The notes beneath the pieces were generated by a model. It did not search any database. It was not told the DNA's origin and saw only the letters and a program-made list of their open reading frames with translations. The translations under genes were made by a program, and so were the position numbers. From the NCBI GenBank assembly GCA_022432975.1, contig CM039503.1, forward strand, positions 49,765,259 through 49,829,258: a DNA stretch of 64,000 nucleotides. The letters run 5' to 3'. Within the stretch, counting starts at the first letter, position 1, and each line of letters begins with the position of its first letter. Shown piece after piece: positions 24,240 to 62,669 of the stretch. The stretch is from Begonia masoniana (lineage: Eukaryota; Streptophyta; Magnoliopsida; Cucurbitales; Begoniaceae).

Positions 24240-26775
24240 TGTAATATTCGGCCTGTACGGAAATTTATACTATAATATATATTGACATTTTTGTATATAT
24301 GTCAAATCAAACTCGTTCTACGAAAAGAAAGCGCCATTATGATCCTAATTATTAATTGGAATTTTAAAAAATTTATGGGATTTTTCGGAGTAATAACGCT
24401 ATATTTCGAGAAATTACGTTTCTCGTAATATAAATAACGTTTTGATAAAAATAGTAAACGAGGTCCGAATTTCAAACGGATAGTTTTAATAAATCCCAAA
24501 TAATAAGTTGGAGTTATTGGTGAAATAATGAGATTTGGAGAAACCGAATCGTTAGACAACTAATAAAACAAAGACGAAACAAATAGAAAACAAAGGAAGG
24601 GCGAAACGGTAATTTACCAAGTCAATTTTTATTAAAATTGAATTGTCTTCTTCTTCTTCTCCACGCGAACTTCTCTCTCCCTGCGACTTCTCCTCCCTCC
24701 TTGGCGATTCACGGCGATTCTCACTTCCAACCTCCGTTCGTCCTCCAATCGTTCCGTTTTCTTCGCGCTTTCTCCTCCATTCGACGCTCTAGGTATGATT
24801 CTAAAGTTTTAGAGTGTTAGTTTTCGGTTTTCGCAAAGTTATACGTTTAGGGTTTCGATTAGGGTTTTGTTAAAAATCGAGATTTAGGATTTGAAACCGA
24901 TAGATTGTTGTAGATTACGCATGTATAGGACATATTGAACGTTATTGGATGAAGTTAGAGTGATTTGTGAGAAATGTTAAAATTGGAGAATTTTTGGGTT
25001 TTTAGGAAAACTCGTTAATTGGAATTTTAAACTATCGAGCGTTAATCGTTGTTTAAATACTTCAATTAGTTAGGTTGAGATTTTAAGAAATTCCTTAGAT
25101 AAGGTTTTGGTTAAATTTGGACGTTTAGAAGTTTAAACTCGTTTTAACGATAAACGTTGTGTTTTGCTTCAGACAAACAACGCTCGTGGACGAAGCTTGA
25201 ACTGCTTTGGACACGAGGTAAGTTCTCGTGATCTTCTCTGGCCGATTGGCCTACATCGTACGTCGAGGTCGTCTCGAGGAGTTTTGGAGACGTGCTTATT
25301 TAATTGTTTTGGTTGGGTAGTTAGGTTGCTTTGTTTTATAGTTGTGCATTTACAGTCTTGATGGTACACATGATTGTTTATTTATGTTTATATTGAACTG
25401 TTCATGCATCACGTGTTTTAAAAGAACATAGAAAATGAATTTTCGCACGATGTTTTAAAGAAAATGGTAATGCGGCTTGGAGAGGGCTATTGATCTATTG
25501 TGTAGGCACAAAGGGGTCTGTCACAATACCGTATTTAACACATACTCATACAGTTTACAGTTACAGGTCATGCGAGATGGGGCTCAGGCACGGCTGTACG
25601 CGTTGTAAGCGTGTACCCCCCTCTTCTAGCTGGAAAGAGTAGTCCGACCGCTGGATGTGCTCTCTCCGGTTAGGAGGCTGAGATCTCGGTGACACCCACA
25701 GAGTAAAGAAAATGCTGCATGATTTCTGAACTCATATGCACGGCATGCATTTTACATTTACGATAGCTTGCTGAGATTTTTATCTCATAGATGTCTGTAT
25801 GGTGTAGGTGATTACGAGGAAACAGGTGAGGACGAGGTTCCTCCTCCTGAGGCATGAGTCTAGTTGATGGAGGATGGCTGCGGTGGTGTGCTGGCGCGGT
25901 CGACGCTTACCTGACCCGTGGGGATGTACGTATAGGTTTTTGGGTTTTTGGGATGTTTTGGATTGATGATTGTATAGACAGTTTAGGATGTTTGGATCTG
26001 ATAGTGGATAGGTTTACTTTTGAGGTTTTTTTTTAAACGTTTTGAAAACTGGTTTATAAACTGATTTGGTAAAGTTTTATTTGAATTGTAAGTGATTTCA
26101 AAAACAGGTGGATTTGTTTAGGTTTTAAACATATCTACGCAGTTCGTTTTCATGAAAATGTACTTCGTGTTAATTGTATTTTGAATCAGTTTTGAGTGGA
26201 GTTACGAGAGCGTATGAGTGTTGAGTTTTGGTTGAGTTTAAGTTTTTTATGATGACTGTAGTGTTAGTTGATATTGAATTGTGAGGTGTATAAGTTTGGC
26301 GCAGGAGAAAAGGAAAGCAAAGAGGAAAGAAACAGAGGCGGTGGCGATTGATCGCCCAGGGGTGGGGATCAATCGCCCCTTGGTCGCCGCTCTCTGGAGA
26401 AATCCAGAGAGCATGGCGATCCATCGCCACAAATTGTGGCTATTGATCGCCACAGGCGATTCGCAACAGGTGAATGGTCGCCTGTTGCAATCGCCGAAGG
26501 GGCGATCAGTCGCCCCTTTATGGGCGACTGATCGCCACTACATATAGGGATGAAATTCCTTTTTTGCCATGATTGCCGATTGTATTTTATTTTAATGTTT
26601 TATTTAATTGTTTTAATTACTTTTAGTTATGTTTTAAGTGATTTAAAGATTAGATTTCAATTCCGATTTCGATTCTGGTTTCGATTTCGGTTTAAGTTCC
26701 GCTTAGAGTTTATTTAAAGTATAGGGATAAAAAAAAATAGTGTGGAAAATTGGGTACAGTATTAGGGTCGTGACA
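24240..26775 (+). mobile_element. Solo LTR 1 (2.5 kb) in element A protease
   Basis: It runs TGTAATATTCGG to GGGTCGTGACA with an exact GGAAG duplication (24235-24239 and 26776-26780). It shares blocks with element C's LTR, for example GTAAGTTCTCGTGATCTTCT followed by GGCCGATTGGCC at 25218-25251. Near its 3' side is a palindrome-rich cluster of GATCGCC/GGCGATC words (26335-26546). It carries the best-preserved copy of the LTR-internal spliced ORF, listed separately. Confidence 0.9.
24643..25857 (+). CDS. Putative LTR-internal spliced ORF, solo LTR 1
   Basis: Proposed exons are about 24643-24792 (ends CTCTAG/GTATGA), 25173-25217 (after GCTTCAG; ends CACGAG/GTAAGT) and 25808-25857 (after GGTGTAG; TGA at 25855-25857). 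The phase-consistent frame is open throughout. Exon 2 reads KQRSWTKLELLWTR and the terminal exon reads GDYEETGEDEVPPPEA-stop. The same arrangement and similar peptides occur in three other LTRs here, with mostly third-position changes between them. It is a short acidic-tailed product of unknown role. No ATG is present in this frame of exon 1, so initiation is unexplained; the block could instead be a conserved spliced leader. No known family is recognised. Confidence 0.4.
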
Positions 26776-26780
26776 GGAAG

Positions 26781-27324
26781 TGTCAAACCAAGAAACATTA
26801 TAAGGTCGAACATGAAGAACGGGCTGCAACCCCAAGCGGGTTACAGCAGCTACAGATACTGTATTAATACAACTACCATTATCGACAATAATTTTGCTGC
26901 CTTTGTTATTGACCTTAATATATGTGTGGAAGATAGAATGACAACGTCAATCTTCAATGTCCTTAAGTTGGGTAAGCATACATCTCACGACGTTCAGCCG
27001 AGGTGAATCATGGGAGTAAACATAGTGATGGGTCGGATACATCCTAAAAAATTATCATTGTCCACATTTTTGAATTCCTCAAGGTTAGGTTCATAGACTT
27101 GTTCTTCACTTGTATCCCCGACTGCATCTTCACATTCTTGTAAGACTAAGTTTCAGCTTGGGCAATTAGAAAAAATGTGGTCAAAACCCTTACAATTGGA
27201 ACATTGTAAACGTGACGAGCTTCGCAAATTGTCTACACTTTTTCCTTTGTTTTCCCTTGCCAAAGGGGTATTTGATGGAGGAAGTCTTAGGAGAGACTCA
27301 GGAGCAACAGGGGTCGGGACTGAG
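26781..27324 (-). pseudogene. Element A gag C-terminus with zinc knuckle, and protease N-terminal half
   Basis: On the minus strand a CCHC knuckle (CSNCKGFDHIFSNC, about 27160-27205) follows a Pro-rich linker. The protease start comes next, with the active-site block read as IIVDNGS at about 26870-26890 in place of the usual D-[ST/G]-G. Stops interrupt the region between knuckle and protease. It joins gag (40124 upward) when Cassandra is removed, and the rest of protease when solo LTR 1 is removed; both joins stay in frame. Confidence 0.8.
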
Positions 27325-27440
27325 GGAGGTGTGATGACCCGGATATGTACGTATGAGTACGACTGCGGAGCAAACCAGGTTGCGGGGTGGATTCCGGACT
27401 CGAGTATAGGCGAATCCCGGGTCGTAAAGAGGGGGTCGTC

Positions 27441-27691
27441 TGTAACACCCGGGTATTTTTCTTTAAAGGAAAAATTGGAGAGAAAAATAAAAGAACAATA
27501 AAATAGGTTATTTAAAAGAAGAGTGAAAAAATTTGGTTAAACTAATTGGTTAATTAATTTGTGTTCGGATATTCTAATTGGAGAACTTAAGCCGTGTATA
27601 ATGCGAGGGTTAATTTACGAAAATTTATAATTTAAGAACGAGATTTAACGGAGTTTTCGGTAGGGCAAAATGGTAATGTTATTGTTATAAA

Positions 27692-27725
<34 letters not shown>

Positions 27726-29847
27726 AAATAAAAAATAAAAACAAAACAACAGAATGGCCGAAGCCATTCTGTTGTTCGCGAGTGCCTGACGGCCGAGAGG
27801 AGAACAGGGGAGAGGAGGAGGCGATGCGGCGCCGTTCACCGGCGATTTTCGACGGTCTCCGGCCAGACGACGGCGGCGAACCTTGGGCTAGCGTTTCCGG
27901 CCGACTCCGCGCACGAACCGACCGGGTAAGTTGGTTTTTTGCTCCGTTTTGTGTTCGATCTGGGCTGGGGATCACCGAGCTGCTAGAGCTCCGATCGCCG
28001 GTCGTTTTTGACTGCCCTTAGCTTCTGATTACCGAGCTCAACGCCGGCAAAGATTGCCGAGCAACAGGGAGCTCAGATTGAGCCAAAATCTGAGAACCCT
28101 TTTTTTTGAGCTTCGGGTTTCTTGTTTGAAACCTTGATTTTTCGTTAGATTATGTTAATTTGATGTTAGGGTAGTTGATTGGTGAGGAATTAGATGATAA
28201 TTGATGAAAAACTAGAAAGGGGGAAATTTCGGGTTAAGGGGCAGTTTGGGTTTTTGCCATTTTGACCTAGCCACGGTCGTTTGTTTTGAAATTCCTTTTG
28301 ACAGGTTAAAATAGGTTATTAGAGGAGTACGTGGCCGCTGGAATCGTTTGATTCCGATATCCGACGCAAAAGTTACGCGCGTTCAAAGTTTCGGGTGGGT
28401 TTTACCGAACCCAAATTAATGGCCCGTTTAGTTAGGTTTTAGTTTGATTAGGCTAGAAATAGTAGTTTTAGAGTAAATTGGTGAATGTAGGCGTGATTTT
28501 TAATGAAGCTTGAATGTTTGTTATAGGTCGAGCCATAGGCTACGAGATGTGCCAAAACCAGCGAACTACGGACGACAAGTAAGTTCTCGTGATCTTCTTT
28601 AGCCGATTGGCCTACACCGTATGTCAAATGTTGTCTCGAGGAGTTTTGGAGATGCGTTTGTTTAATTGTACTTGGTTTGGGTAGCTAGGTTTTAGGGGTT
28701 TATAGTTTACGCTTTACAGTCTTGATGGTACACGTTATTGTTTGTTTACTTTAAGATATTGAACTGTTCACGCATCACTTGTTTTAAAGAAAAGCATGAA
28801 AATGAACTTCTGCACAGAGTTTTAAAGATAACGTAAAGCATAGCATTGGCCGAAAGGCTTATTGGCCGAAAGGCGTATTGGCCGAAAGGCGTATTGGTCA
28901 CGCGAGGTGGGGCTCAGGCACGGCTGTACGTGTTGTAAGCGTGCACCCCCCGCTTCTAGCTGGAAAGAGTAGTCCGCCCGCTAGATGAGCTCTCTCCGGT
29001 TAGAATGATAGGATCTCGGTGACACTTATTGAGCATTGTATAGTAAAGAAAATAAAGCATGATTTATCGAACTCATACGCACAGCATGCATTGCCTTTAC
29101 GTAGAGCTTACTGGGATTTCATCTCATAGTGTATTGTATGGTGTAGATGACCTAGACATCGCGGCAGGTGAGAACGATGTCCCTCCTTCTGAGGCATGAG
29201 TCCAGTTGACGATGGATGCTCGCGGCAGTGTGTTGGCGCAGTCGATGCTCAACCGACCCGTGGGGAAGTATGTATAGATTTTGAGGGTTTGGGACATTTT
29301 GGGTTGATGTTTGTATAGAAATTATAGGATGTTTGGTACTGATAGTTGATAGGTTTTATGTTTAATGTTTTAAATGTTTTGGCAAACTGTATATAGAAAA
29401 TGTTTTGGTTTTAACTGTAAATTAAACGTTTTGGAACTGTTTTGTGATTTTAAAACAGGAGGATATGTTAAACTTTCAAACGGAACCACGCAGTTTATTT
29501 TCGTGAAAATGTACTTTGTTATAGTTGTGTTTCGAGTCGGTTTTGTTGTGGTATTTCGGAAGACGTATGAGTATCGGGTACTTGATGTTAAGTTGTATTG
29601 TGAAGTGTATGTTCGTGAGGTGGATAGTAATTGTGGTATAGATAGAATTGTTTTAGTGAAATGGTGAGGTTGTATTTTGTAGGTGTTTGGGTACGTATTA
29701 TTTTAAATAATTGTTTTGTAATTGCTTTAAACGTTTTATTCAATTGATTTTAAATTGTTTTCAAATTGTTTTCCGCATAAACGCTAAGGATAAAAGAAAA
29801 AGAATAATTTCGTACGGGAAATTAGGAATAGTATGAGGGACGTTACA
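27441..29847 (+). repeat. Element C 5' LTR
   Basis: 2,407 bp. Landmarks: a TTA microsatellite (27697-27723), an inverted pair AATGGCCGAAGCCATT (27752-27767), GC-rich GACGG-containing leader sequence, a GACAAGTAAGTTCTCGTGATC block (28577), and three copies of a GTATTGGCCGAAAGGC-type repeat near 28850-28895. The block at 29147-29199 reads DLDIAAGENDVPPSEA-stop, the terminal-exon homologue. Here the 45-nt exon is not clearly preserved. Confidence 0.92.
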
Positions 29848-29849
29848 AT

Positions 29850-29868
29850 TATGGTATCAGAGCCCCCG
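29850..29868 (+). other. Element C primer-binding site
   Basis: ATGGTATCAGAGCCCCCGG lies two bases after the 5' LTR. It is complementary to the 3' end of initiator tRNA-Met, the standard primer of plant Ty3/gypsy elements. Confidence 0.88.
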
Positions 29869-30028
29869 GGTTTTAAAATCGGTTCTGTAGACTGCTCAAC
29901 TGCACAGCCACTACGCGGACATTCTTCATCAATTGTAAGTATGTTTATAGTTTTATTTGATTTTAGTTTCTTAGGATTATTTGTTTTAACTTTCATAGGA
30001 GTTATTTATAAATATAGTGCGTCCAGGG

Positions 30029-30445
30029 AATGATCGAGACGACCGAGACGATACGATAGATCACCTTAAGGATTTCATTGCCCAATAATCCCAACTCATT
30101 GACCGACAAGCGCAGCTTATAGATAGACAATCTCGTCAGCTCGCGATGTTGACGAACCGAGAAAACCATAGGATCCAAGGACTAGTCACTCCCAATAACC
30201 ACGGCACGAAGAGGGTGGGCAAGGAAGAAATCAAACAAAGCCGCCGAAACGGCGTACAAGGAACTTCTCGGGGACCTCTGTGTCCTGAATGTCAGAAGGA
30301 ACACTATGACAATTGTAGATTAGGCACAGAAAGGTGCTTTAGATGTGGAGTGATTGGCCACTACGTCAAGGAGTACCCGAGACCTGGTAGGGATAAGAAG
30401 AAGGATTACATCGAGGATAATTGCCCAGAACAAAGACGAGGATAA
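30029..30445 (+). pseudogene. Element C gag remnant with zinc knuckles
   Basis: A charged, helical N-terminal part (LIDRQAQLIDRQSRQL, a coiled-coil-like repeat) passes straight into a basic linker. Two Cys/His knuckles follow: CPECQKEHYDNC and CFRCGVIGHYVKEY, the second with its last Cys replaced by Tyr. The main capsid domain of gag is absent. The early frame has a stop (30087). The layout matches the gag remnant of element B at 56044-56477, so the deletion predates the split of B and C. Confidence 0.78.
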
Positions 30446-33400
30446 CGGCCAACCCTCAGTTGTTTCGGGTATAGTTTTATTTCGGCAGTTAATGGAATAA
30501 AGAATATTAGAGTGGGGATTTCGTGTAGAGTTTAAATTTTGGGAAGATAATGGTGTGAAAGGTTGGCGTAACATAGACTTCGAATATAGGAGGGATAGAG
30601 TTGTGCGTTAAAGTTCATGACACAGCATAACCGTGGGAATTGAACAATTGAGATTCAATTACCATGAGAGGGGTACAATTTATGGGATACAAGATTTAAA
30701 TAAATGAGAACTAGACCCTAATTGACAGACCCCTAGAGTTTAAAATGAAATCAATAGAGGAGAAATTTGGAGTTTAGATGTAAGGCTTACTAGAGAATGT
30801 TCTAGATTGTCAAGATATTGTTAGTTCGTACAAGTAGATAAGAAAATATAGCAGGAATTTAAATAACTTAGATCCACGAGAAATTAGGAGTACCTAGACT
30901 AGGTGACGCTCAAAAAGTCAGCTTGTGTATATTGTTGAAGGGATGATAGGATGATTCAAAGTTGAAGACGCGATTACGAAGGGGTGTTCGTATTGACCCG
31001 CATCGATGAAGAGGATAAGGGTGATTACTCGGGGTTGGAAGATTAACGAAATTAGAGACAATAAATGATTAAAGTTATACAAAAGGTACTACTCGAGATA
31101 CGAAGTTTGACCAAAAGGTACTACTCGAGATACGAAGTTTGACCGACCTTAGGTATTGTATGAAAGGACTAGTAAATTGAGGACGATTGTTGATTAGTGA
31201 AAAAGATTTCGACCGACTTACTATAAGGGGGATACGTAGTAAAATTAAGAGTAATTGGTGAGTAGTAGAGGTAGTGTTGAGTGGGGGTTATGAAACAAAA
31301 AGCCTAGGAACTAAGAAGGACTTAAGAACTCGAAAGTGATAACAATTTGAACGAAAAGTTTAGCACCGAGGTTTAAAGCAATTAGTAGGACTGGAGTTAG
31401 GTCATGGTTGATACGGTTTGAGGCTTACCTCCGAGAAGGAAGTAAGAACATCAGTGTACGAGGAAATTAAAAGAGTAAGATTTGGGGTTAGAGAAGATTG
31501 GAATCACAGGCGTAAACTTATCTACAACAAGTTTGCTAACAAGAAGATCGAAGGATAGATCGTTGCACGAGAACAAAGTAGAATATTTAGAGCCGACTAG
31601 GAGGAACGAAACAGGGTAAGGTCATTCATTAACGTCAAGGTAATCTTCGTGCAATATTAAGGATAGGTGAAGGAGATTATCGAATTCAATGAGAGGTTAA
31701 GATTTGAAGCTAGAATAAAGAGAAGGACGATTTTCATAGAAACCATTTAAGTAAACCTAAGTAAAAAGATGATTTTCAGTGGTTTGACTCGTATTTGACA
31801 AGTCGAGCCCAATGGATACATAGATAACTCAAAGCTAGAAGGAATAGTTTAGAACAAATTCATAATGAGACTTAGGGACTTGACTGTGCTCAAGGTTAAC
31901 GAAGAGTTAAGTTAGACGAATAAGCACATTGAAGATAGAACAAACGTTTCGATTAGAACATAATGAAGGAACTCCTTAACGTGACGTAGAATGAAATGTG
32001 AGATTTATAGAATCGCATCGGAACAGGGATCGTGGTCGGTGAGTTACCCGAGGGAGAATATGACGTAGGATATCATTGATGGGTACCTTGCGAAACATTG
32101 AGAATAAAATTTTAGTTGAGAAGCTCACATTGAAATAGTTATTAAGACCTGTGAAGTGTCCAAGGAAGGATGCAATTTGGATACTATCGACGCAGAAGTC
32201 ATGTGGGAACATTATTAGAGAAATGTATGCTCGGATGACTAAGGTAAAGGCCAATGAATTTTTACACAAGTTCAGTTTACAGCTCCGATATATATATATA
32301 TATAGAAATTTTTATACCCGATAGATGGATAAGGTAATAGTATAATTGAGATTTAGCGTTGGAATAAGTAATTTAAGAGGCTTTGAGGGCGTAAAGTGCT
32401 TAGGTGCATATTTGATGGACATGGAACTAAAGGAACTCAATTCGGGGAATTTAAGTTAAATAAAGGGGAGTTTGGATTACAAGCTGGATGTTGTTGGGAA
32501 TCCTTGAACGGTAGTTAACCCAAATGACATTGGAAGTTGATGTTATTTCGAGGATTGAGGATAAGAGACAATCTTTAGCAGAGACCAATTAGTAAGTTAA
32601 AGTGAGTTTAACGTTTTGGGTGACTAAATGCAAACCAACACGTGCTCGAGACGTTAAGTGTCGAGTACCCAGTTAGAGATCGCTCGATTGAGGACTTAGG
32701 AAATTTTGTAAGACTCGATACGTAAGCAAGGACACGTGTAGGCCAATTAAAAGTGAGGAATACGATTACGAAGTTAATATAGAAATTGAGTTGGTGTGTA
32801 TCCCGACTGGAGACAGAGTTGATGAAACTATGTTTAAGTTTGGATTACAGCCCAAGAGTGGGAAAAGATTTTTAGATGATATTCGATCTAACTGATGTTA
32901 GGAAATTTGGACGTAGATGTGATATAAAGTAATAGCTGAGAGAAACTTCGATGGGAGAAGATTTTGAGGTTGCTTCGTTAGAGAATTGAGGACTTGAATT
33001 AGGCTTAGATCGGGGAAGCCTGAACATAAGGTCAAGTCAGAACAATAAGGAAGTTTAACTTATGGACGATTAAGTGGAAACTAACGTGTGTGTAAATTAT
33101 TTACGTGCATATCAGTGCAGTTGGGTTATTAAAAATTTAAGACGTGAGGATTACTAGCACGTGGTGCACAATCGAAGACTTAGTTAATCAAATCAAACGC
33201 AGTAGGTATGGTTAGGAGGTTAATGATGCGTCATCTGGTTTTAGGGATTCTAGTTTAGAACCATTGAGATTGACCCTAAGTATGGGCTAGAATCGAAGCC
33301 CTTGTGTGGGAGTTCAGAATTTTAGAGGGTTGGAGAAAGGTGACTCGAAAAGAACGGAGTGATTGTAAATCATTGTATAAGGCCGCAAGACATGAGACGG

Positions 33401-33464
33401 TAATGCCAATGACTGCAAGCTAAGTCAAATTTTGAGGACAAAATTTTAATTAAGGTGGGTGGAT
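30446..33464 (+). other. Element C non-coding internal domain
   Basis: About 3 kb of purine-rich sequence with no long ORF in any frame. It aligns in blocks with the reverse complement of element B's interior, for example around 31590 (GGAGGAACGAAA) and 33255-33460, ending in the same AATTAAGGTGG purine tract. This is a LARD-type conserved non-coding interior. A 40-bp exact tandem duplication (AAAAGGTACTACTCGAGATA start) lies at 31079-31144, and a TA run at 32290-32303. Confidence 0.75.
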
Positions 33465-33513
33465 TGTAACACCCGGGTATTTTTCTTTAAAGGAAAAATT
33501 GGAGAGAAAAATA
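33465..33513 (+). repeat. Orphan copy of the LTR 5' end (duplicated purine tract plus LTR start)
   Basis: The sequence TGTAACACCCGGGTATTTTT onward matches the first 49 bp of element C's LTR. It is preceded by the same purine tract that precedes the true 3' LTR at 36298, then joins back to internal sequence at ATGCGTCAT. The roughly 290-bp segment 33225-33513 is thus a direct duplication of the internal 3' end. Confidence 0.88.
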
Positions 33514-33719
33514 ATGCGTCATTTGTGTAACACCCGACATTTCGGCCAGGTGAATTTTTCTGACCATTCTAATTGTTACCCTTATTTAACCTTTATGATT
33601 AAATTTAACGTTGAGGCAAATTCATTACAAGTTGAGTAAAACTAGGTTGAGTGGCAATTTTGTAATAAAGATTGAAGGATTAGGTATAAATAGAAAATGG
33701 AAACCTTAAATCTCATTTA

Positions 33720-34850
33720 AAACCTCACTGCAGCCGACATTTCCTCTCGGCGACTCCCTTCTTCTCTGGAGCCTTTTTCCTCCCCAGCAACTGGTTTTTC
33801 AGCCTCCACTCCGATAACCCGCATTCTAGGTAAGATTTTGACAATGTAGATGCCGGGTAGTCACTTAGAACTCTGTTTTCAGTTGAACTTGTACTTTCGG
33901 GCTCTTCGATGGCTGAGTCAGTTGGTTATCGTTCTTTATCTTCATTTGGTAATGTCACCCTTAAATCGATTCTGGACCTTTTATATAACCGACCCCGTTT
34001 AATCGATAGCTATATCTAGCTGTTTCGGTTTTGGATTTCAGACTGCACAGAGAACCTTAGCTGTTAGATTCTAGGATGACTTTCGATTAGAACTTTTAGG
34101 ACTTTATTTTAACTACTGTAATGTGGAATGTTTTAGGTGAAGAAGTTGAAGAGAAAGTGATTCAAGTTGCTAAGGATCCAGGTAAGTGAATGTATTAAGT
34201 TTCCGGCCAATAGGGCCCTACATCAAAGGATTAAGTTAGATTTAGTGAACATTGCCTGCTATATGTTTGATGAAATGTCGGTGGATATGGTTCTGTTATT
34301 CTGATGTTCTCCCCTGTCTTAGTTCGATGATTAAGTGCATTTATGTTATGCATCATGTTTTACTTCTCAAGCATATGAAAATGTTTTGAAATATGTTTTC
34401 TCATGAATAAAATAAGAAGATAAAACTTATGCAACGTGGTTAAGTGAGGGTTGGGGGTGGTTCGGCGTATGTCACAGTCCGCAGTAGGACATATGAATAC
34501 GACCCGCAGTAGGGACCATGATCAAACTCACTGTCGAACCCCCTTTACCGGCACAAATCCTCCCTTAAACCACATAATGTAATGAAGAATATGAATGATG
34601 AAAGGAATGATGAATATGAGCATGTCTACGAATGATGATTATGAACAATGAATACGAGATACGATTATGAATGATGATTAAGATAAGTACATGAAAAGAA
34701 AAGACTTATGAGCATGTTTTTCTCCAAGTTATGCATTCATGAACTCATAATAGTTTGCATTCCTTACTAAGCCTTAGGCTTACAGTTACACCTTATGATG
34801 TAGGTGAAGAAATATCAGGTGAGGAATTCAAAGTTGATGAAAATGTCTAA
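33720..34850 (+). CDS. Putative LTR-internal spliced ORF, solo LTR 2
   Basis: Proposed exons are about 33720-33829 (ends TTCTAG/GTAAGA), 34137-34181 (45 nt; after TTTTAG; ends CCAG/GTAAGT) and 34804-34850 (after GATGTAG; TAA at 34848-34850). In the matching frame exon 2 reads EEVEEKVIQVAKDP and the tail reads GEEISGEEFKVDENV-stop. Exon lengths and phases equal those of solo LTR 1 although the DNA is strongly diverged, which argues that the frame was maintained. No ATG is visible in exon 1. Function is unknown. Confidence 0.38.
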
Positions 34851-35204
34851 GCTCGGTTGCTGGAGGTGATCAGTGTGAAATCTGTGGCTGGGTGGCGAAT
34901 GAGGAATTCTGGTTAAAGCTCGTATAAGTTTTAATGAAGTTTTTAAGAAGCCAAGTCAAGTAGGTTCGGATTATTTAACAATTTGGGATTTTAGAAACTG
35001 CCTGTCTTAATTTCAGAGTCCGAAGATATAGCTATAGTTATCAAATGAACTATTTTAATTAAGTCTTCCGCTGTGTGAGTTTGAATGAGTTCACGATTTA
35101 TTCTGATGAGTTTTGGCCATTAAGATTTAAGATATGAGGTTTACATTTATCTAGATAGAAGTCAAAAAAAAAGGGGGGATGTCTGATGCCAAGGGATGAT
35201 GGAG

Positions 35205-36297: not shown

Positions 36298-36550
36298 TGT
36301 AACACCCGGGTATTTTTCTTTAAAGGAAAAATTGGAGAGAAAAATAAAAGAACAATAAAATAGGTTATTTAAAAGAAGAGTGAATAAATTTGGTTAAACT
36401 AATTGGTTAATTAATTTGTGTTCGGATATTCTAATTGGAGAACTTAAGCCGTGTATAATGCGAGGGTTAATTTACAAAAATTTATAATTTAAGAACGGGA
36501 TTTAACGGAGTTTTCGGTAGGACAAAATGGTAATGTTATTGTTATAAATG

Positions 36551-36585
<35 letters not shown>

Positions 36586-50690: not shown

Positions 50691-50704
50691 AGTTTGAGCT
50701 GGAT

Positions 50705-51311: not shown

Positions 51312-53569
51312 TGTAACGACTCTAATTCTTTACCCTTAATTTTTCGTAAAATTTTTTCTTTTTAAACCTCTAAATCAATTAAAACATCCTCAAAACCATT
51401 TAAAGAAAATATAATAAAATAGAAGAATCAATCAGCCAAAAGAACCGAGGGCAAAAAGGGCAACTGCCTGAAATTTGCATGGCCGATCGATCGGCCATTT
51501 CAGTCGATCGATCGCCCCTTTTCTTCTCTTCATAGCCGATCGATCGCCCGTTTTGGCGATCAATTGGCATACTCTCTGGAATTTGTTCCAGAGAGTTGCC
51601 TCAATTCTTTTCTCCTTCTTTCCCCTGCACACTTCATCACTTCTTTACCCTTTCCTTCAACTCCAACGCCAAACAACATACTAAAACATACTAAACACTT
51701 CAACCAAACTTACTCACACATCCTTCATAGTCTCACTCAAAAACCGACTCAAAACATATTTAAAACGTAATCAAATTTCATAAAAACAAACCGCGTAGTT
51801 CTGTTTAAAAATTGAACAATTCCCTCTGTTTGAAAATATCAAAAACACAACAAAATACTATACATTATCTATCCAGACACCAAACATCCTAATATGATTC
51901 CACTATATAATTTTCCTACGTTTCTATCTATCAAAATCCCAAAAACATTTACTTACATCTCCCCGAGTCAAAATTCGCACCGACTGCCAGCGCACTCCCA
52001 CGGGCCATCCTCCATCAACGTGTTCATACTTCGGGTGGAAGAACGTCGTCCTCACCTGTCTCGAAATCACCTACACCATAGAATTAAACTATGAGCTAAA
52101 GGCTCGGTAAGTCTACGTGAATGCACGTGAATGCTATGCATGTGCGGTTCGTAAAACATGCATCCTACCTTTCTGCTATTCATTTCATTTAAAACGTCAC
52201 CGGGGCTTCGTTCTCAGTAGATAGAAGCGGCACATCCGACGATTGGATAGCCCCTTGTATCTATCCGGGGGGAAAACATACTTCATCCGACAGCCATGTC
52301 TGAACCACCGCCACCAACGTGACCATCAATACATACTTTTTACCTTTTCTTTAACCTTTTCCATTTCATGAAAATATCCATAGAAATTCTTTTTTTTTCA
52401 TGCCTTTCAAAAACCATGATGCGTGAACATGTACTATGCCATAAACGAAATCGAGACAAACAAACAATGAACTTAAACAATCAACAACTTAACCAAACCT
52501 AAAACTACTACCCAACCTATTTACCCAACACATTCTACATCGCCAATTTCCTCAATCAATATAAATCTTATGGTGTAGGCCAATCGGCCAAACGAGTCAC
52601 GAAGACTTACCTCGCGTCCGTTGCAATTCAAGCTCCGTCCGCGAGCGTTGTTCACCTATGGCAATTCCAAACAATTGTCATTAAAACTGAGTTTAAACTG
52701 TTAAACTTCCAAACTAACGAAACCCTTAACTATAGAAATCTCCTAAAACTTTAATTTAACTCATTGAGGCATTTCGTCGAGCAATTCACGCTCACAAATC
52801 CTAAACCTCCATTAATGGAGTTTTCCAAAACTTCACATACCCGATTTTCAACCAAAACGCTAAATACATTTATTATTTCGCCCAATAAAGCTCAATAATC
52901 ACAAATAGGGCGATATCCAACCATTTCTAACATAACCCGACTAATTCATCAAAAACCTAACGAAACCCTAACTGTATTTAACCCTTAAAATCGAGAACTA
53001 ACGGACTAAAACTATAGAATCGTACCTAGGAAGCAAAGACGGAGAAGAAACGTGAAGAACCGGAGCCGATCGGAGGAAGAATCGCCGGCGTTGAGGAGGG
53101 CGTCGTCTGAAAATGGAGAGAAACTTCTCTTTGGAGAAGTTTCTTCACGAATGAAGAAACTGATAGGGGGGGGGGGGGGATTTAATATGTTTTAAATTTT
53201 AAGTTGACAATTTACTCTTTTGCCCTTTTCACTTAGTTTTCCATTTATTTCATTATTTAACTATCGATTTGGTTTCTCCTAACTTTCTTTATTTCTCCAT
53301 ATATTCCAATTTGCTCATAGGAACTTTCCGTTCGTAAAACGGACTTAATTTGCTATTTTTACGAATTAAAACGCCATAGGGTTAAAACGGAAACTTGGGC
53401 GTTACCCCACCGATTTGGATTCCTGAAGTTTCCATATTTCTCCTAAAATCCATATAAATCATCGAGGTTCTAATAAAGCTCTCCATTCACAAAACGGACA
53501 TATTTCACTTATTTACAAAAATGCCATTGTGTATCGAAAATTCAAAAACCCGTAAAACCGGGTGTTACA
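51312..53569 (-). repeat. Element B 3' LTR (2.26 kb, complete)
   Basis: On the minus strand it runs TGTAACACCCGG to TCGTTACA. Landmarks: a poly-G run (53166-53179) near the start of the proposed exon 1, the GACGCGAGGTAAGTCTTCGT block (52600-52615), and GCCGATCGATCGGC-type palindromes at 51480-51565. The purine tract AATTAAGGTGGATGAAA lies just before it on the minus strand (53570-53586). Confidence 0.92.
52024..53180 (-). CDS. Putative LTR-internal spliced ORF, element B 3' LTR
   Basis: Proposed exons on the minus strand are about 53180-53026 (ends TCCTAG/GTACGA), 52655-52611 (45 nt; after CATAG; ends GCGAG/GTAAGT) and 52070-52024 (after GGTGTAG; TGA at 52026-52024). Exon 2 reads EQRSRTELELQRTR and the tail reads GDFETGEDDVLPPEV-stop. 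Compared with solo LTRs 1 and 3 the differences are largely third-position. Exon 1 is open in the matching frame (for example DDALLNAGDSSSDRLRFF) but has no ATG. The upstream frame of the terminal block has a stop six bases before GGTGTA, so the tail would need splicing to be reached. Confidence 0.42.
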
Positions 53570-56043
53570 TTTCATCCACCTTAATTAAAATTTTGTCCTC
53601 AAAATTTGCTTAGCTTATAGTCCTTGACATTAACGTCTCCTGTCCTACAGCCTAATTCTTCGATTTACTATTACTCTGTTCTTTCCGAGTGTCTCCTCTC
53701 CATCTCACAAATATTTTGAATTTCTCTTTTAGAACTTTGGTTTTATCTATACTTAGGGTCAACTTCTATGGTTCTAACCCAAAACTCCTGAACTCAATGA
53801 TGCAGCGCTAACTACGCTCCAGATTATGCATTACGTGTTATTAGATTCCTAAGTCTCCAATTCGTATAACCCCATTGCATATCCATGCACCTAAATAATT
53901 CACGCATGTGTTCATCACTCATAGGTTAAACCTTCTAACTCTTCTAATTTGGTCCTATTTTGGGTTTCCTCGATCAAAACTTACCACAATTCCTCGTATT
54001 CCTAATAAAACTAAACTTCCTAACATCAGCTAGATCGAATATCGTCCAAAGATTTCTACCAACCCCTGGGCTATAACCCAAACTTCTGCATAAATTCATG
54101 TGCTCTCTATCCGTAGTTGGAAAGCATGCCAATTCAAATTTCTACATTTTATCTAGTAATAATCCCTCATAAACTGTTTTATCTCTAGTACTCTGTGATC
54201 ATATGTTTTCTCGAGCAACTCGCCGATTGTCGATGACTATTTCGGTGTGGGCTTCTCAACTAAGCTCTCATTGCTATACTCCACATGCTATATCGTCAAA
54301 ATATCTCAGATTTTAACAAGTCCAACAGGGAGCCAAAATTGCCAATCTCTTAAGATCCTTATTCCTTTGTAATTAAGATCATATAAACATCATATTTCAA
54401 ATTAAAAATATTAACGAGCTCCCTCGTTATGCCATTAATTGAAATTCTCATATTATCTACATTACGCTTCATTTGTCTTACTTAGATCTTTATGAACTCC
54501 GAGTACCGTCAAGTCTCTAATTTCACCATTGATTTGCTCTAAACTATTAATTCTAGCTTTAGACCATTTATGTACTCATTGGTCTCGACTTGTTATATAC
54601 GAGTCGAACTTCTTAAATTTTCTAACTTAGCCTCACTTCTAAGTTTACTTAAATGATTCCTGTGCAAATCTCAATTCTCCCCATTCAATAAACCGAGAAT
54701 TTCACAAATCGCACAACGTTAAACAATTATCTAAATTTCTAATCTTAACCTCTCATTTACTCTAACAATCCCTTCCGCTTATCCCTAATATCGCACAAGG
54801 ATTTCTTCGAAGTTAATAAATGGCCTACCATCTTTCGTTCCTCCTACTCAGGCTCTAAATGTTCTACTTGGTTCCAGTGCAATGATTTATCCAACGATAT
54901 TCTTGTTTGAAAACTTGTTGTAGATAAGTTTACACTCTTACTCCAATTCTCCTCAAATTCTCAAATCTTGCCTTTTTTTATTTTCCAACAATTTAAAACA
55001 TTTCTTCATTAATGCTAACCTTCCTAGTTCCTCGAATATTGATGCTTCTACCTCCATCCTGGAGGTAGCCTCATGCTTGTGGCTCTTAACTTAAATTGTA
55101 CCAACTATAAATTCACAACTTAACTCTTATTTTTTTGCTTCATAATCTAATCAAGCAACACTAAATGCCTGACGTGTCTACAACTCTTTGATCACACTTA
55201 ATTTCATTAAATCTCCCCCTTATAGTATGTCGATCGAACTCTTTTCGTAATTAACAATCGTCCTCAATTGACTAGTCTTTTCAGACAATACTTATCTCCT
55301 AAAGATCGGCCAAACTTTGTATGTCGTGTATCAACTGTCGTATAACTTTAACCCTTTATTGTCTCAAATTTTGTTAACCTTCCAACTCCGAGTAAATACC
55401 CTTATCTTCTTCGTCGATATAGGTCGATACGAACACCCCTACGTAATCGCTCATATCTTACGTCTTCAACGTTGCATTGTTCCATCAGCCCTTTACAAAA
55501 GAAGTTGACGCATTGCATACCCCTTCCACAATCTACTTAAACTAAACTTTTGAGTGCCACCTTTGTCTAAATGCTCCCAACTTCTCGTGGATCTAGGTTA
55601 TTTAAATTTCTGCTATATTTTCTTATCCACTTGTACGTACAAATGATACCTCGACAATCTAATACATTCTCTAGTAAGTCTTACATCTAAACTTCAAATT
55701 TCTCCTCGATTGATCATATTCTAAACTCTAAGGGTTTGTCAATTAGGGTCTAGTTCCCATTTATTTAAACCTTATATCCCGTAAGTTGTACCCCTCATGG
55801 AAATTGAATCTTAAGTGCTCAATTCTCACAGTTATGCCGGGTCATGGACTTTAACGCATAACTCTATCCCTCCTTTATTCGAAGTCTATGTCGTCCCCTC
55901 TCTATTTTTTTAAGCTTACTTCAACCTATCACACAATTATCATCTCCATATATTCCAACTCTATACTACATCCCTACTCTAATATTCTCCATTCCATTAA
56001 CTGTTGAAATAAAACTATACCTGAAACGACTGAGGGTTGGGCG
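53570..56043 (-). other. Element B non-coding internal domain
   Basis: There is no ORF of note on either strand. Blocks align with element C, for example minus-strand GACCCTAAGTAT, GGAAAGAACAGAGTAATAGT and TTTTGAGGACAAAATTTTAA near 53585-53770, and GGAGGAACGAAAG near 54835-54850. Confidence 0.75.
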
Positions 56044-56477
56044 TTATCCTCGTCTTCGTTCGGGGCAATTATCCTCGGTGAAATTTCTTTCTTTTGGTTA
56101 GTAGCCTTCCTCGAGCAATTTAAGGCATAATGGCCCACCTCCCCTCATTTATAGCATTGGTCCGTACCCAATCTACACATACCCCAATGGTTCTTCTTAC
56201 ACTTTGAGCATCGAGGCATATGCTGAGATTCTTGTACGCGCTTTCATCGGCTTTGTTTGATTTCTTTCTTGCCCATCCTCTTCGTACCGTGGTTATTGGG
56301 AGCGACCACTCCTTGGATCCTAGGGTTTTCTCGGTTTGTCAACATCTCAAGCTGACAAGATTGCCTATCTATAAGTTGTGCTTGTCGGTCAATGTGTTGG
56401 GATTGTTGATCAATGAACTCCCTAAGTTGATCAACAGTGTCGCTCTTTTCATCTCTACCGTTTCCTCTACGTACCAT
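56044..56477 (-). pseudogene. Element B gag remnant with zinc knuckles
   Basis: The frame opens at 56477 and gives a charged helical segment (DQQSQHIDRQAQLIDRQS), then a linker parallel to that of element C. Further on are CSKCKKNHWGMC and, after an in-frame stop that replaces the first Cys of the second knuckle, GEVGHYALNC. The capsid domain is missing, as in C. Confidence 0.75.
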
Positions 56478-56542
56478 TTTGTAACCCTATAAAATTAAAG
56501 ACAACATATTTAAGTAATTAAAATAAAAGAAAGCATATAACG

Positions 56543-57490
56543 TAGGGGTGGGCAGAACCGGACCAGAACCGGTGGACCGATCTGGACCGTCAGTTCGGTC
56601 CGGTTCTTGGGTGGTTTTTTGAGTTATGGGACCGGTTCCCGGTTCCCAGACCCATGGGACCGGAACCGCGGTCCACGGTCCCGGTTCTGTTGATCACAGA
56701 ACCAGGAACCGTGGGAGAACGGACAAAATATTGTTCCATTGATCCAACCACCGTCAGCTTCTGCTCCTTCAGATCTGCTGCAATCGAATCGACCCCTGAA
56801 AATGGAAAATTAAACAAACCCAGAAAACATTAGTACGATGAATCTAGTTTCAGAAACTGTAAAACCAGAAAACCCAGGATGAAATACCGTAGATGTCTGC
56901 AGCTGCTTCTATGGCTCTCTGCTTTGTTTTCTCGTCGGTCATCGTCATCACCTTTAAAACCACCTTCTGCTCGAGAAATAGATAAATTATGAACAGGCTA
57001 AGAATGGAGGTGAAGAAGATTAGAAGATGAAGAAGAAGAAGATGTACCTGAGCCATTGGGAAGAAGGAAGAGGAAGTGTAAAGGTGAAGAATTGAAGGAG
57101 AAAGGTTGGTGGAGTTTTCTGAATTGGAAGTGCCTCGGTTTTAGGCAGCAAAAGAAAAAATTCATGATTTTCTGGTCTTGTAGCTTCATGACTTTGCCTT
57201 GCCTCTCTGCCCTTAACCTCTCATCAATTAATCAAATCCAAAATCTAAACGATAACCAATTGAGAGTCTTAATTGCATTTTTAACGAAAAAAAAATCAAA
57301 AAATAAAAATAAAAATTATTGGGAGGAACCGGTACCGAACCGGGAACCGGACCGTAAATTCGGTCCGATCTCGGTTCAGTACCGGTTCCTCATGGGACCG
57401 GTTCCGGTTCTAGAACCTAAAATACCGAATTGTCCGGTCTGGTCCGGTTCCAAGCGGGAACCGGACCGGACCGGACCGTGCCCACCCCTA
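56543..57490. mobile_element. hAT-like non-autonomous element carrying a captured gene fragment
   Basis: The ends TAGGGGTGGGCA (56543-56554) and TGCCCACCCCTA (57479-57490) are perfect 12-bp inverted repeats; subterminal regions are dense in GGTCCGGTTC / GAACCGGACC. ATAACGTA occurs on both sides (56537-56544 and 57491-57498), the 8-bp duplication expected of hAT elements. It encodes no transposase. The centre carries exons of a host-type gene (next entry). Confidence 0.88.
56735..57056 (-). pseudogene. Captured fragment of a heavy-metal-associated (HIPP-type) gene
   Basis: Minus-strand exons are 57056-57048 (MAQ, then GTACAT donor), 56966-56888 (after GAGCAG; KVVLKVMTMTDEKTKQRAIE..., ends TACG/GTATTT) and 56795 to about 56735 (after TTTCAG; VDSIAADLKEQKLTVVGSM). 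Phases match (0, then 1). The roughly 50 residues follow the first two thirds of the HMA domain of plant HIPP proteins of the type lacking the CXXC metal motif. The rest of the domain and the Pro-rich tail with CaaX box are absent; sequence then reverts to element subterminal repeats. Introns are retained, so capture was from genomic DNA. Confidence 0.8.
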
Positions 57491-57574
57491 ATAACGTACT
57501 TACAGTTGAAGAGGTATGTCCGTGTAGTGGCTGTGCAGTCGAACAGTCTACAGAACTGATTTTAAAACCCGGGG

Positions 57575-57586
57575 GTTCTGATACCA
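57575..57586 (-). other. Element B primer-binding site
   Basis: The minus strand reads TGGTATCAGAAC four bases inside the 5' LTR, one base away from the initiator tRNA-Met complement used by C. Confidence 0.85.
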
Positions 57587-57590
57587 TAAC

Positions 57591-59388
57591 TGTAACGACC
57601 CTAATTCTTTACCATTAATTTCCCGTAAAAAATTTTCTTTTTAAACCTCTAAATCAATTAAAACATCCTCAAAACCATTTAAAGAATATATAATAAAATA
57701 TGAGAATCAATCAGCCAAAGGAACCGAGGGCAAAAAGGGCAACTGCCCAAAATTTGCATGGCCTATCGATCGGCCATTTCAGCCGATCTATCGGTTATGG
57801 CGATTTCTCACAGGCAATCGATCGCCCCTTTTCTTCTCCTCATAGCCAATTGATCGCGCGTTTTGGCGATCGATCGGCATACTATCTGGAATTCGTTCCA
57901 GAGAGTTGCCTCAATTCTTTTCTCCTTCTTTCCCCTGCACACTTCATCACTTCTTTACCCTTTCCTTCAACTCCAATGCAAAACAACATACTAAAACATA
58001 CTAAACACTTCAACCAAACTTACTCACACATCCTTCATAGTCTCACTCAAAAACCGACTCAAAACATATTTAAAACGTAACCAAATTTCATAAAAACGAA
58101 CCGCGTGGTTCTGTTTAAAAATTGAACGATTCCCTTTGTTTGAAAATATCAAAAACACGACAAAATACTATACATTATCTATCCAGACTCCAAACATCCT
58201 AATATGGTTCCACTATACAATTTTCCTAAGTTTCTATCTATCAAAATCCCAAAAACATTTACTTACATCCCCACGGGTCAAAATTCGCACCGACTGCCAG
58301 CGCACTCCCACAGGCCATCCTCCATCAATGTGTTCATACTTCGGGTGGAGGAACGTCGTCCTCACCTGTCTCGAAATCACCTACACCATAGAATTAAACT
58401 ATGAGCTAAAGGCTCAGTAAGTCTACGTGAATGCACGTGAATGCTATGTATATGCAGTTCGTAAAACATGCATCCTACCTTTTTGCTATTCATTTCATTT
58501 AAAACGTCACCGGGGCTTCACTCTCAGTAGATAGAAGTGGCACATCCAACAATTGGATAGCCCCTTGTATCTACTCGGGAGGAAAACATGCTTTATCCGA
58601 CAGCGATGTCTAAACCACCGCCACCGACGTGACCATCAATACATACTTTTTACCTTTTCTTTTACCTTTTCCTTTTCATGAAAATATGTATAAAAATTCT
58701 TTTTTTTTCATGCCTTTCAAAAACCATGATGCGTGAACATGTACTATGCCATAAACGAAATCAAGACATACAAACAATGAACTTAAACAATCAACAACTT
58801 AACCAAACCTAAAACTACTACCCAACCTATTTACCCAACACATTCTACATCTCCAATTTCCTCAATCAACATAAATCTTATGAAGTAGGCCAATCAGTCA
58901 AACGAGTCACGAAGACTTACCTCGCGTCCGTTGCAATTCAAGCTCCGTCCACGAGCGTTGTTCACCTATGGCAATTTCAAACAACTGTCATTAAAACTGA
59001 GTTTAAACCGTTAAACTTCCAAACTAACGAAACTCTTAACTATAGAAATCTCTTAAACTATCGATTTAACGATCGATTTGGTTTCTCCGAACTTTTCTTA
59101 TTTCTCCATATATTCCAATTTGTTCATAGGGTTCCAATAAAACTTTCCGTTCGCAAAACGGACTTAATTTGCTATTTTTACGAATTAAAATGTCATAGGG
59201 TTAAAACGAAAACTTGGGCGTTACCCCACCGATTTGGATTCCTGAAGTTTCCATATTTCTCCTAAAATCCATATAAATCATCGGGGTTCTAATAAAGCTC
59301 TCTATTCACAAAACAAGCTTATTTCACTTATTTACAAAAATGCCATCGTGTATCAAAAATTCAAAAACTCGTAAAATCGGGTGTTACA
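57591..59388 (-). repeat. Element B 5' LTR (1.80 kb, internally deleted)
   Basis: It matches the 3' LTR closely but lacks about 0.47 kb corresponding to 52750-53260, the segment with the proposed exon 1. The 45-nt exon (58965-58921) and terminal exon (58380-58334) remain. GATCG palindromes lie at 57765-57875. Confidence 0.9.
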
Positions 59389-59534: not shown

Positions 59535-60049
59535 TGTTAGCTTAAAATACGTTTAAGTCTAACTATATTTTTGATGATTGTAATTAACATGAAATATATA
59601 AATATAAAATGATTGAAAGAAATGAAAGTTATTAATAATTGCAGTTAATTTGAAATGCCCTTTAAAAAAGGTATTATGTTTTCTAACGATTTTGATTAAG
59701 TGCTGGTAGTCAAGACTGGTGCAAGCAAAGTCTGACGAAATCGACATCGACCGATTGCAGAACCAATTGATTAATCGATCGAAGTCGTCTGTAGTAATTA
59801 CATCTGTAACGAACTTTAATTAAACCCTTGTACTATTCCTAAAAATCCCATGAAATTTTAAACTTTTATTCGTATTTTGATCATGCATGCATAAGGGTGC
59901 TCAACCCCATTCAGCAGAAGACTATTCATGTGTGAAAATTTCCTCTCGGGTTCTATCACTTAATTTCTCTCGGAATCAATAATCACTTAGTTCTTCTCGG
60001 GTTTCATCAATTTAAGCAGTGGAGGAAGATGTTTCTCTCTATCGGGTTT

Positions 60050-60470
60050 GGACGATGGAAACAGAAGGAAATACCTCTCAGGTTTCATCAATTTAAACAG
60101 TGGAGGAAGATATTTCTCTCTATCGGGTTTGGACGACAAAAACTTTAGGAGGCGTGGACGACAAAAACTGTAAGCAGTGTGGACGACTGAAAACAGTAAT
60201 CAGTGTGGACGACTAAAAACTGTAGACAGTGTGGACGACTGAAAAACTGTAGGCAGTGTGGACGACTGAGTTTCTCTGCCAGAATACTTAACTAAACTTT
60301 ATCGTCCACAGACTTTGGACGATGACTTTCTTACATAATACTTAACTAAAAATTTATCGTCCACAGAGTTTGGACGATGACTTTCTTACAGAATACTTAA
60401 CTAAAATTTATCGTCCACATTCTTCCACGTGACTTATTCGTCCACGTGACTTACTTGTCCACAGGCTACT
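60050..60470. repeat. GTGGACGAC tandem repeats in solo LTR 3
   Basis: About five copies of a 26-28 bp unit (CAGTGTGGACGACTGAAAAC) lie at 60155-60270. A 54-bp unit containing TTTATCGTCCACAGA and GTTTGGACGATGACTTTCTT is repeated at 60300-60420. GTCCA/TGGAC words then alternate in both orientations, giving hairpin potential. Confidence 0.82.
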
Positions 60471-60904
60471 TAAACCCTATTCGTCCATGGGCTATTGCCC
60501 ACGGAACTTGGACAACGACCTTGGACGACATCCAGACTTATAAAATTCTGGCTCTAAACCATGCAATACCCGATCGATCGCCCCTTGCTGGTGATCGATC
60601 GGCTAGCTCTCTGGATTTTGTCCAGAGAGCTGCCTTCACATTATTTTCCCATGTACCTACACACCATTCACCCAGAATTTTCAGAAACATTAAACGTCAA
60701 AAATCATCTTCCATTTCATCGATTTAAATATCTACACTATCTAGACATCAAACACCCTAAAATGAGTTCTATACAATTCATATACTTTCCCCCATTAGCC
60801 AGACATAAACCCAAAATCCCTAAAACACTTACTTACATCCCCACGGGTCAAAATAAGCACCGATCGCCCAGCGCACTCCGACAGGCCAACCTTATTCAAC
60901 CTGC

Positions 60905-61760
60905 TTATTCCTCAGGTGGAGGGATCTCATCCTCACCTGTATCGAAATCACCTACACCATAGAATTAAACTATGAGCTAAAAGGCTTAGTAAACCTACGT
61001 AAATGCAGATGAATGCTATGCGTATGAAATGCTTAAAATCATGCAGTCATCCTACATTTTCGCTATTAATTTCATTTAAGATGTCACCGAGGTTTCGCTC
61101 TCAGTAGATAGAAGTGGCACATCCGACGATTGGATAGCCCCTCGTATCTACCCGGGGGGAAAACATGCTTCTTCTGACAGCCATGTCTGAACCATCACCC
61201 CGACGTGACCGTTATTACGTACATTTATACCTTTTCGTTATCATTTTTTATGAAAAACATACTTGAAAATTCTTCAAGTGGCCTAACTACCCAATCTAAT
61301 TACCTGAAACATGCTACATCTCTAATTCCTCAATTTCACATACTTTCTTATGGCGTAGGCCTAACCGGCCAAACAAATCACGAAGACTTACCTCGCGTCC
61401 GTTGCAATTCAAGCTCCTTCCACGAGCGTCGTTCACCTATTGCAATTCACAACATTCATCATTAAAATCGAGTCTAAACCATTGAGTTTCAAAAACTATT
61501 AACTCCTAGCTAAAAGAAATTTCCTAAAACTCTAATCCACGTTTTTGACAAAACCCTAACGAAACCCTAACCGTTTCCTAACCCTAAACCGGAAAGTAAA
61601 TCATCCATATCATAGAGCCTTACCTAGAGCTGCAATTTCGGAAGAAAACGGAGGAGAGTTTGGTTGTCGGAGCTTGGAGAAATCGCCGGCGTGAGGGAAC
61701 GGAAGAGAGGCGATGAAAATCGCCTGAAGAGTTTGAGAAAGGAGAGGTTTCGTGAAAATG
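60905..61760 (-). CDS. Putative LTR-internal spliced ORF, solo LTR 3
   Basis: Proposed minus-strand exons are about 61760-61624 (ends CTCTAG/GTAAGG), 61436-61392 (45 nt; after CAATAG; ends GCGAG/GTAAGT) and 60951-60905 (after GGTGTAG; TAA at 60907-60905). Exon 2 reads ERRSWKELELQRTR and the tail reads GDFDTGEDEIPPPEE-stop. Relative to element B there are many synonymous changes and a TGA-to-TAA stop change at the same position. In exon 1 a different frame has an ATG (61830) but ends in TAG exactly at the exon end; the conserved frame lacks one. Confidence 0.42.
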
Positions 61761-62669
61761 CTGAAGGGGGAGGGAGTTGTTTGATTTTTAATAAAATTTG
61801 ATTAGCCAAATTACCATATTGCCCCTCCATTGATTTTCTATTTTGTTTCTTTACTTATTCAGTTATTTATCCAACGATTCGGTTTCTCCAAATTTTCATA
61901 TTTCACCATAAATTCCAATATATTATTAAGGCTCCATTAAAACTTTTCGTTCGTAAAACGGACTTAATTTGACATATTTACAAAAATACCATATTATTAT
62001 TGGAATAATAAAATCCCATAAAATCGGGTGTTACAACATCGAACAGATTCAGAAGTCTACCAATGAACATCGAATGATGATAGAACCAGTTGATTATCGA
62101 CCGAAGTCATCCGTGGAAATCAAGTCGACCAGAGTATGACAACTACCGAAATCAACAACGTCCAAAACCAAGTCGACCAGATTTTGAAGTCATGCGGCAG
62201 ATATGTCTACCGAAAGCAATGTCGACCAAAACCAAGTATGACTCTGTAACAAAGTCAAGTCGACCAGATTAACATCATCTGAATTTAGAAGTCGTCCAAT
62301 ATGAGAATACTTCACAAGATCAACGTCGACTGAACAAAGACTTTGATAACATCTTTCATATCAAGAAGTCTTCTGTCGCGAGTGATATCAACTCCAGACC
62401 ACAACAGCTATATTTCTTCCTACAGACTCTTCACAACGGTCATATTTTTGTACGGAAACAAGGAGTCCTCCGAAAGTGAAGCAGATTACAGACAAGAGTA
62501 TATATAAAAGAACAGTAGCTCGAGAGAGGAACTTTTACCAATCTTTTGAACAGTCACTCAGAACTCCTACGAGCTCACGCGATAATCTTTGTTTACACCT
62601 CTCTACATCATAACTTGAGATTTAGCATTTGAGAGAGTGTAACTTTGTACTCAAAACTTTTCCATGTTG

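Follow-up and report, generated by a model that had tools for sequence, protein, structure and literature searches.

Introns are generally absent from the long terminal repeat (LTR) retrotransposons of plants, with Ogre and EVADE as exceptions, according to a 2025 review (PMC12786077). In Ogre, a Tat element, the RNA of a plant Ty3/gypsy retrotransposon is spliced, as is predicted here, but the Ogre intron lies between GAG-PROT and the reverse transcriptase (RT) domain, whereas the introns considered here lie inside the LTR (PMC6317226). EVADE and BARE1 likewise make a short Gag (shGAG) by splicing, which meets a stop shortly past the junction; these are Ty1/copia elements, for which the review describes a loss of the protease part, whereas here a putative terminal exon would be supplied by the LTR (PMC12786077). 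CERV of Cer1, a Ty3/gypsy element of C. elegans, is an accessory protein made from multi-exon spliced retrotransposon RNA, with its first exons in the gag frame; it has 517 residues and a known export role, whereas here a 15-residue tail alone is visible (PMC10309623). For Tekay/Del chromoviruses, a literature search of limited depth, based on partial texts, recognised no account of LTR introns or of an LTR coding exon. We analysed a 64,000-nt stretch of Begonia masoniana (assembly GCA_022432975.1, contig CM039503.1, positions 49,765,259 to 49,829,258, forward strand), hereafter the window, in which two elements (B and C) and several solo LTRs carry, inside the LTR, predicted exons 1, 2 and 3, the last with a short coding tail that ends in a stop.

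We found that the LTRs begin with TGTAACACC or a closely similar sequence and finish in GTTACA. L071, a full-length relative of solo LTR 2 (98.7% identity between the LTRs), has two LTRs of 99.8% identity and a single gag-pol frame, open over 1484 codons. Pfam searches with five pieces of L071 returned gag, a CCHC zinc knuckle, protease (PR), RT, RNase H (RH), integrase (INT) and SH3, in the gag-pol order PR-RT-RH-INT, and a C-terminal chromodomain (PF00385) as a weak match (E 0.00067; 20.0 bits, below the 25.1 cut-off). The frame is open throughout PR and RT, without an Ogre-type intron. A degenerate copy (L009/L010) is a relative of element B, and its gag, RT-like and chromodomain-like pieces were identified by visual inspection and by aligning it with L071; inside elements B and C only gag remnants were recognised, and both are therefore taken as non-autonomous. 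As judged from these features, the owners of the LTRs are Ty3/gypsy chromoviruses, Tekay/Del-like, a large group. The single gag-pol frame, the domain set and the long TGTAACACC...GTTACA LTRs agree with Tekay/Del, a clade name that we presume from element features.

The exon 3 tail is real, widespread in this genome and constrained. A loose pattern for the start of exon 3 gave 2418 matches (1149 + 1269) in 795 Mb, and the reversed pattern none. One hundred of these matches, all on contig C1, were listed, and 40 of them fetched (the first 20 chosen for diverse starts, the next 20 distinct, all plus strand). Among the matches listed, the distance from the acceptor to an internal CAG was 15, 18 or 21 nt in 94 of 100, with 11-21 nt permitted by the pattern, and the 64 unique 18-nt starts held 0 stops in the tail frame versus 10 in phase 0 and 64 in phase 1, where a fixed TGA accounts for all 64. 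In 56 of the 64 starts, the residue just before [TSAP]-G-E is F, Y, L, I or V. Of the 40 fetched tails, 29 have their in-frame stop at nt 47, in support of the constant stop position put forward in the preliminary description of the window. The stop codon itself varies (26 TAG, 3 TAA and 1 TGA at nt 45-47 in 30 tails), and in the window it differs by family, with TGA in element B and TAA in solo LTR 2 (family S2) and solo LTR 3. The tail consensus is acidic and about 15 residues long, G-[DE]-[DE]-x-hydrophobic-[TSAP]-G-E-...-[QE]-[DE]-stop, with a net charge of -4 to -7 in 29 of 30.

Next, we investigated the substitution pattern of the tail. The ratio of nonsynonymous to synonymous differences (pN/pS) was 0.61 in the tail frame, compared with 0.94 and 1.12 in the other two, and an equally low value arose in 1 of 300 column permutations; the 27 nt past the stop gave 0.84, 1.05 and 0.93. 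The set comprised 30 of the 35 tails with an 18-nt start (34 fetched and that of solo0, a divergent solo LTR in the window), all with a stop codon at nt 45-47; L078, L081, L089, L113 and L121, which lack it, were excluded, and L084, L086 and L090 were retained despite an earlier stop. The fixed stop and this substitution pattern show predicted exon 3 to be under protein-coding constraint, with no start of its own. No conserved RNA fold was found in 26 aligned tails (4 weak pairs, 0 covarying); these tails also have no gaps before the stop, partly by choice, because they were selected for an intact frame. Searching the peptide against Pfam matched nothing, and a protein search with a 58-residue query returned no candidate. 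Reading upstream of exon 3 without splicing was tried and rejected, with just 12-90 nt open in 9 LTRs and no start.

The sequence around the tail resembles a leader. Exon 1 ends at CTAG/GTA in solo LTRs 1-3 and in the 3' LTR of element B, as originally reported, and it is mostly pyrimidine-rich across families, with a TATA-like box ahead of it in S2 and B. For the exon 2 and tail pairs of the same four LTRs, the coordinates, AG acceptors, GTAAGT donors, peptides and stops were all confirmed, as were both tails of element C and that of solo0. Exon 3 carries an internal donor-like CAG/GTGAG, and we call its first 15-21 nt, up to that site, exon 3a. Beyond the stop, solo LTR 1, solo LTR 3 and element B have a further donor-like GG[GA]GAT/GTAAGT or GTACGT; the predicted end of exon 3 need not coincide with the stop.

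Upon counting ATG triplets, we observed 3.2 per 1000 nt in exon 1 versus 8.1 expected from base composition (3 in 950 nt, 10 copies), 2.6 versus 18.3 in exon 2 (2 in 761 nt, 15 copies) and 4.3 versus 20.9 in exon 3a (3 in 702 nt, 40 copies), this last value being less free than the others because the search pattern fixes some of its letters. Behind CAG/GTGAG the density is 24.1 versus 20.8 expected (28 in 1160), and past the stop 38.2 versus 13.4 (45 in 1178). The missing AUG in the tail frame, which the preliminary description left unexplained, belongs to this wider paucity of ATG, which extends over exons 1, 2 and 3a, as would be expected for a leader. In L071, the unspliced 2495 nt from the presumed transcription start to the gag AUG contain 90 ATG, whereas its predicted exons 1, 3a, 4 and 5 contain 0, its exon 2 sequence is likewise free of them, the long form of exon 3 has 3, and the last predicted acceptor lies 10 nt upstream of the gag AUG. 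An upstream ATG exon, suggested earlier as a possible source of the start, had one candidate within S2 intron 1 (MAESVGYRSLSSF), which was rejected on the stops that interrupt the homologous stretch of L106.

When the joined exons were used as a query, one unbroken match to exon 1 plus exon 2 was found (G000:C10:46964942-46965086; query 1-144, 97%), whereas the remaining 39 of 40 scored places stop at query base 110, just beyond exon 1. In the LTR at that place (L130), the U3 region is followed by exons 1 and 2 fused together, with intron 2 and the remaining part behind them; intron 1 is 307 nt long in 29 of 30 rows (a few places counted twice) and 0 in L130, which lacks exactly what spliced RNA would have lost. 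Exon 1/exon 2 is the sole junction backed by a genomic copy that lacks the intron. We conclude from these sequence features that the LTR contains a predicted multi-exon leader, whose other splice sites are presumably used as well.

As a separate observation, intron 1 of solo0-type LTRs contains a hairpin (TTTCAATGGAT/ATCCATTGAAA, inner stem GACGTG/CACGTC) conserved in L107, L108 and L109, with the inner stem altered on both sides in L107 (GACATG/CATGTC). It would be confined to unspliced RNA and is therefore a candidate packaging or dimer signal.

The preliminary description had drawn exons 1, 2 and the tail as one conserved spliced open reading frame in a single phase. Its LTR introns and constrained tail with a fixed stop stand, but the single phase is not supported, since, across the S2 family and its near relatives, exon 2 measures 46 nt in 20 of 38 rows (5 of the 38 are places counted twice). 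The extra nucleotide disrupts the join, and the tail is nevertheless kept in 19 of the 20. Among the 16 exon 2 sequences tabulated, 12 are multiples of three and 4 are not, and 10 are open into the tail. Exon 1 has no preference for the tail-joined frame, which is open in 6 of 10 copies, the two alternative frames being open in 4 and 7. The three-exon frame as drawn is unsupported because exon 2 varies by 1 nt while the tail is kept, and these comparisons show the frame of predicted exon 2 to be independent of the tail. The tail would therefore be entered from elsewhere or started at a non-AUG codon.

Given a tail with a fixed stop and no start, the LTR probably contributes the final exon of a retrotransposon protein made from spliced RNA. 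We propose, with a probability of about 0.42, that the LTR carries a multi-exon leader whose exon 3 doubles as the final coding exon of an RNA that begins in gag and is spliced into the 3' LTR. In the 5' LTR, splicing would link exons 1, 2 and 3a to exons close to the primer-binding site (PBS) and gag, and would thereby take out AUGs that stand in the way of gag. At the other end, an RNA begun at the gag AUG would splice into exon 3 of the 3' LTR, gain the acidic tail and end. The likeliest product would be a short Gag with the tail, its donor lying about 31 residues past the zinc knuckle, right where the protease match begins. Gag-pol stops by itself before the LTR, and a phase-1 CAG/GTA, in the phase that suits exon 3, lies about 31 residues past the zinc knuckle in L071, L009 and element B, with CGG/GTA in element C; the candidate is 19 residues into the Pfam protease match. 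The gag partner, the donor, the product and its role are inferred. As a tentative extension, the whole group may use one LTR exon in two ways, as a 5' leader exon and as a 3' terminal coding exon; in the latter use it would provide a spliced Gag, or a regulatory protein derived from Gag, with its acidic end, its stop and its polyadenylation site.

Several results weigh against this proposal. The loss of intron 1 is known from a single copy and, because both intron ends carry TAGGT, deletion between short repeats is a possible alternative for L130; no retrocopy joining exon 2 to exon 3 was found in the 40 places scored (2521 candidates). The candidate gag donor comes from four sequences, one of them deviating, and sits in a conserved protein motif, and donor-like sites in L071 and L009, scored with a donor matrix that was assumed and not computed, are not kept better in phase 1 (6 of 16 aligned) than in the other phases (9 of 16 and 7 of 10). 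Regarding the tail, 11 of 40 have no stop at nt 47 (stops at 23, 35, 41, 41, 53, 56 and 56, and none within 76 nt in 4), phase 0 is also stop-free over 76 nt in 18 of 40, and pN/pS was weaker in a first, smaller set (0.76 with 10 sequences, 0.88 with 7).

Exon 3 might instead encode no protein and be kept for splicing, as branch point, acceptor, purine-rich enhancers and internal donor, with its frame a by-product. The CAG/GTGAGG site scores 9.2 as a donor (assumed matrix), GA-rich sequence yields acidic peptides with few stops, the scarcity of ATG by itself shows a leader role, and the open phase 0 in 18 of 40 fits as well. We nevertheless consider this unlikely, since the stop at nt 47 in 29 of 40 is reached via different stop codons between families, lengths change in steps of three in 94 of 100 matches listed, the hydrophobic residue before [TSAP]-G-E (56 of 64) is written with many codons, and the in-frame pN/pS departs from that of the other frames.

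Plant conserved-peptide upstream open reading frames (uORFs), some of them with non-AUG starts, place a conserved peptide end ahead of a stop in a leader, and a conserved C-terminus with a free N-terminus is typical of their peptides. A uORF of this type, which is the preliminary reading at its strongest, with a non-AUG start in exon 1 or 2 and the conserved exon 3 stop, would agree with the tail and with the 10 of 16 exon 2 sequences that open into exon 3, as well as with exon 1 of B3, solo 1, solo 3, S2, C1el5 and solo0, which is open in the same frame (6 of 10). Unlike in such uORFs, however, the frame is not maintained through exons 1 and 2, and a start codon with a frame through the leader exons was not found. 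Exon 2 is 46 nt in 20 of 38 rows, solo0 and L099 have two in-frame stops in common, exon 1 is closed in C1el3 and L106-L109 (single old copies), and many ATGs come after the stop-bearing part, which makes this reading rather improbable.

It is less plausible still that exon 3 ends another spliced product, from pol or a small regulatory frame (Rev- or CERV-like) and not from gag. In C. elegans, Cer1 does encode an export factor, CERV, on an RNA spliced from five exons (PMC10309623), and the partner of the tail in the present elements is itself inferred, but the plus strand of L071 has no second open frame of at least 100 codons, shorter frames being outside that scan. Chance resemblance or an alignment artefact, conceivable for so short a stretch in copies related by descent, is very improbable given 2418 pattern matches against 0 reversed and one stop position in 29 of 40.

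An intron-bearing leader in the LTR would explain how Gag is produced despite a single gag-pol frame behind an AUG-rich 2.5-kb leader, and leader splicing would explain how genomic is separated from messenger RNA. A coding exon in the LTR is copied to both ends, and one sequence is therefore under two kinds of selection. The LTR exon also places ready splice sites and a stop at thousands of genomic locations.

Table. Elements, LTRs and predicted leader features in the window (positions numbered from its first nucleotide)
Feature	Position	Strand	Remarks
solo0, divergent solo LTR	18004..20598	-	target-site copy GAATC; exon 1 end 20169
solo0 exon 3 tail	18923..18969	-	GDDVYTGELNEGDQD, then stop
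solo0 exon 2	19633-19577	-	donor GT mutated to AT
solo0 intron-1 hairpin	19798..19860	-	TTTCAATGGAT...ATCTGTTGAAA
Solo LTR 1	24240..26845	+	3' end by motif only; exon 1 end 24792; exon 2 25173-25217
Solo LTR 1 exon 3 tail	25808..25857	+	GDYEETGEDEVPPPEA, then stop
Element C	27441..38724	+	target-site copy TCGTC; LTRs 27441-29847, 36298-38724
Element C exon 2, 52 nt	28527..28578	+	dissimilar to other exon 2s; in-frame TAG
Element C 5' LTR exon 3 tail	29147..29199	+	
Solo LTR 2 (family S2)	33526..36065	+	nested in element C; target-site copy ATTTG; TGTAAC...GTTACA and flanks
S2 leader exon 1	33730..33829	+	start approximate, behind TATAAATA; donor TCTAG/GTAAGA
S2 intron 1, 307 nt	33830..34136	+	missing from LTR of L130
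S2 exon 2	34137..34181	+	45 nt in solo LTR 2
S2 exon 3 coding tail	34804..34850	+	GEEISGEEFKVDENV, then stop; internal donor-like CAG/GTGAGG after 15 nt
Element C 3' LTR exon 3 tail	38024..38076	+	
Element B	51312..59388	-	3' LTR 53569-51312; 5' LTR 59388-57591
Element B 3' LTR exon 3 tail	52024..52070	-	GDFETGEDDVLPPEV, then stop; further donor-like GTAAGT at 51956
Element B 3' LTR exon 2	52611..52655	-	exon 1 end 53026
Element B 5' LTR exon 3 tail	58334..58380	-	GDFETGEDDVPPPEV, then stop
Solo LTR 3	59805..62035	-	exon 1 end 61624; exon 2 61436-61392
Solo LTR 3 exon 3 tail	60905..60951	-	GDFDTGEDEIPPPEE, then stop

Target-site copies of 5 bp flank solo LTR 2, element C and solo0, whose LTRs have TG...CA ends, and the flanks of element B differ by a one-base mismatch (AAGCT/TAGCT). 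The exon 1 part is gone from the 5' LTR of element B, and a PBS-like TGGTATCAGAGC lies behind the 5' LTR of element C. Solo LTR 1 and element C become homologous exactly at the exon 2 donor (25218 and 28579), without a match between the 5' halves of their LTRs, which look as if they had been swapped at the predicted splice site. The 3' part of the S2 LTR (35211-35732) contains short repeats with TGACGTCA palindromes (CTTCCGGCTGACGTCATCGGCAG). Elsewhere in the window, a 275-bp unit in seven tandem copies (21772-23721) adjoins an RT fragment of another gypsy element, a cluster of direct and inverted repeats with units of about 1.2 kb spans 3388-7072, and an exon of a DUF936 plant gene lies amid the retrotransposons at 45145-46116.

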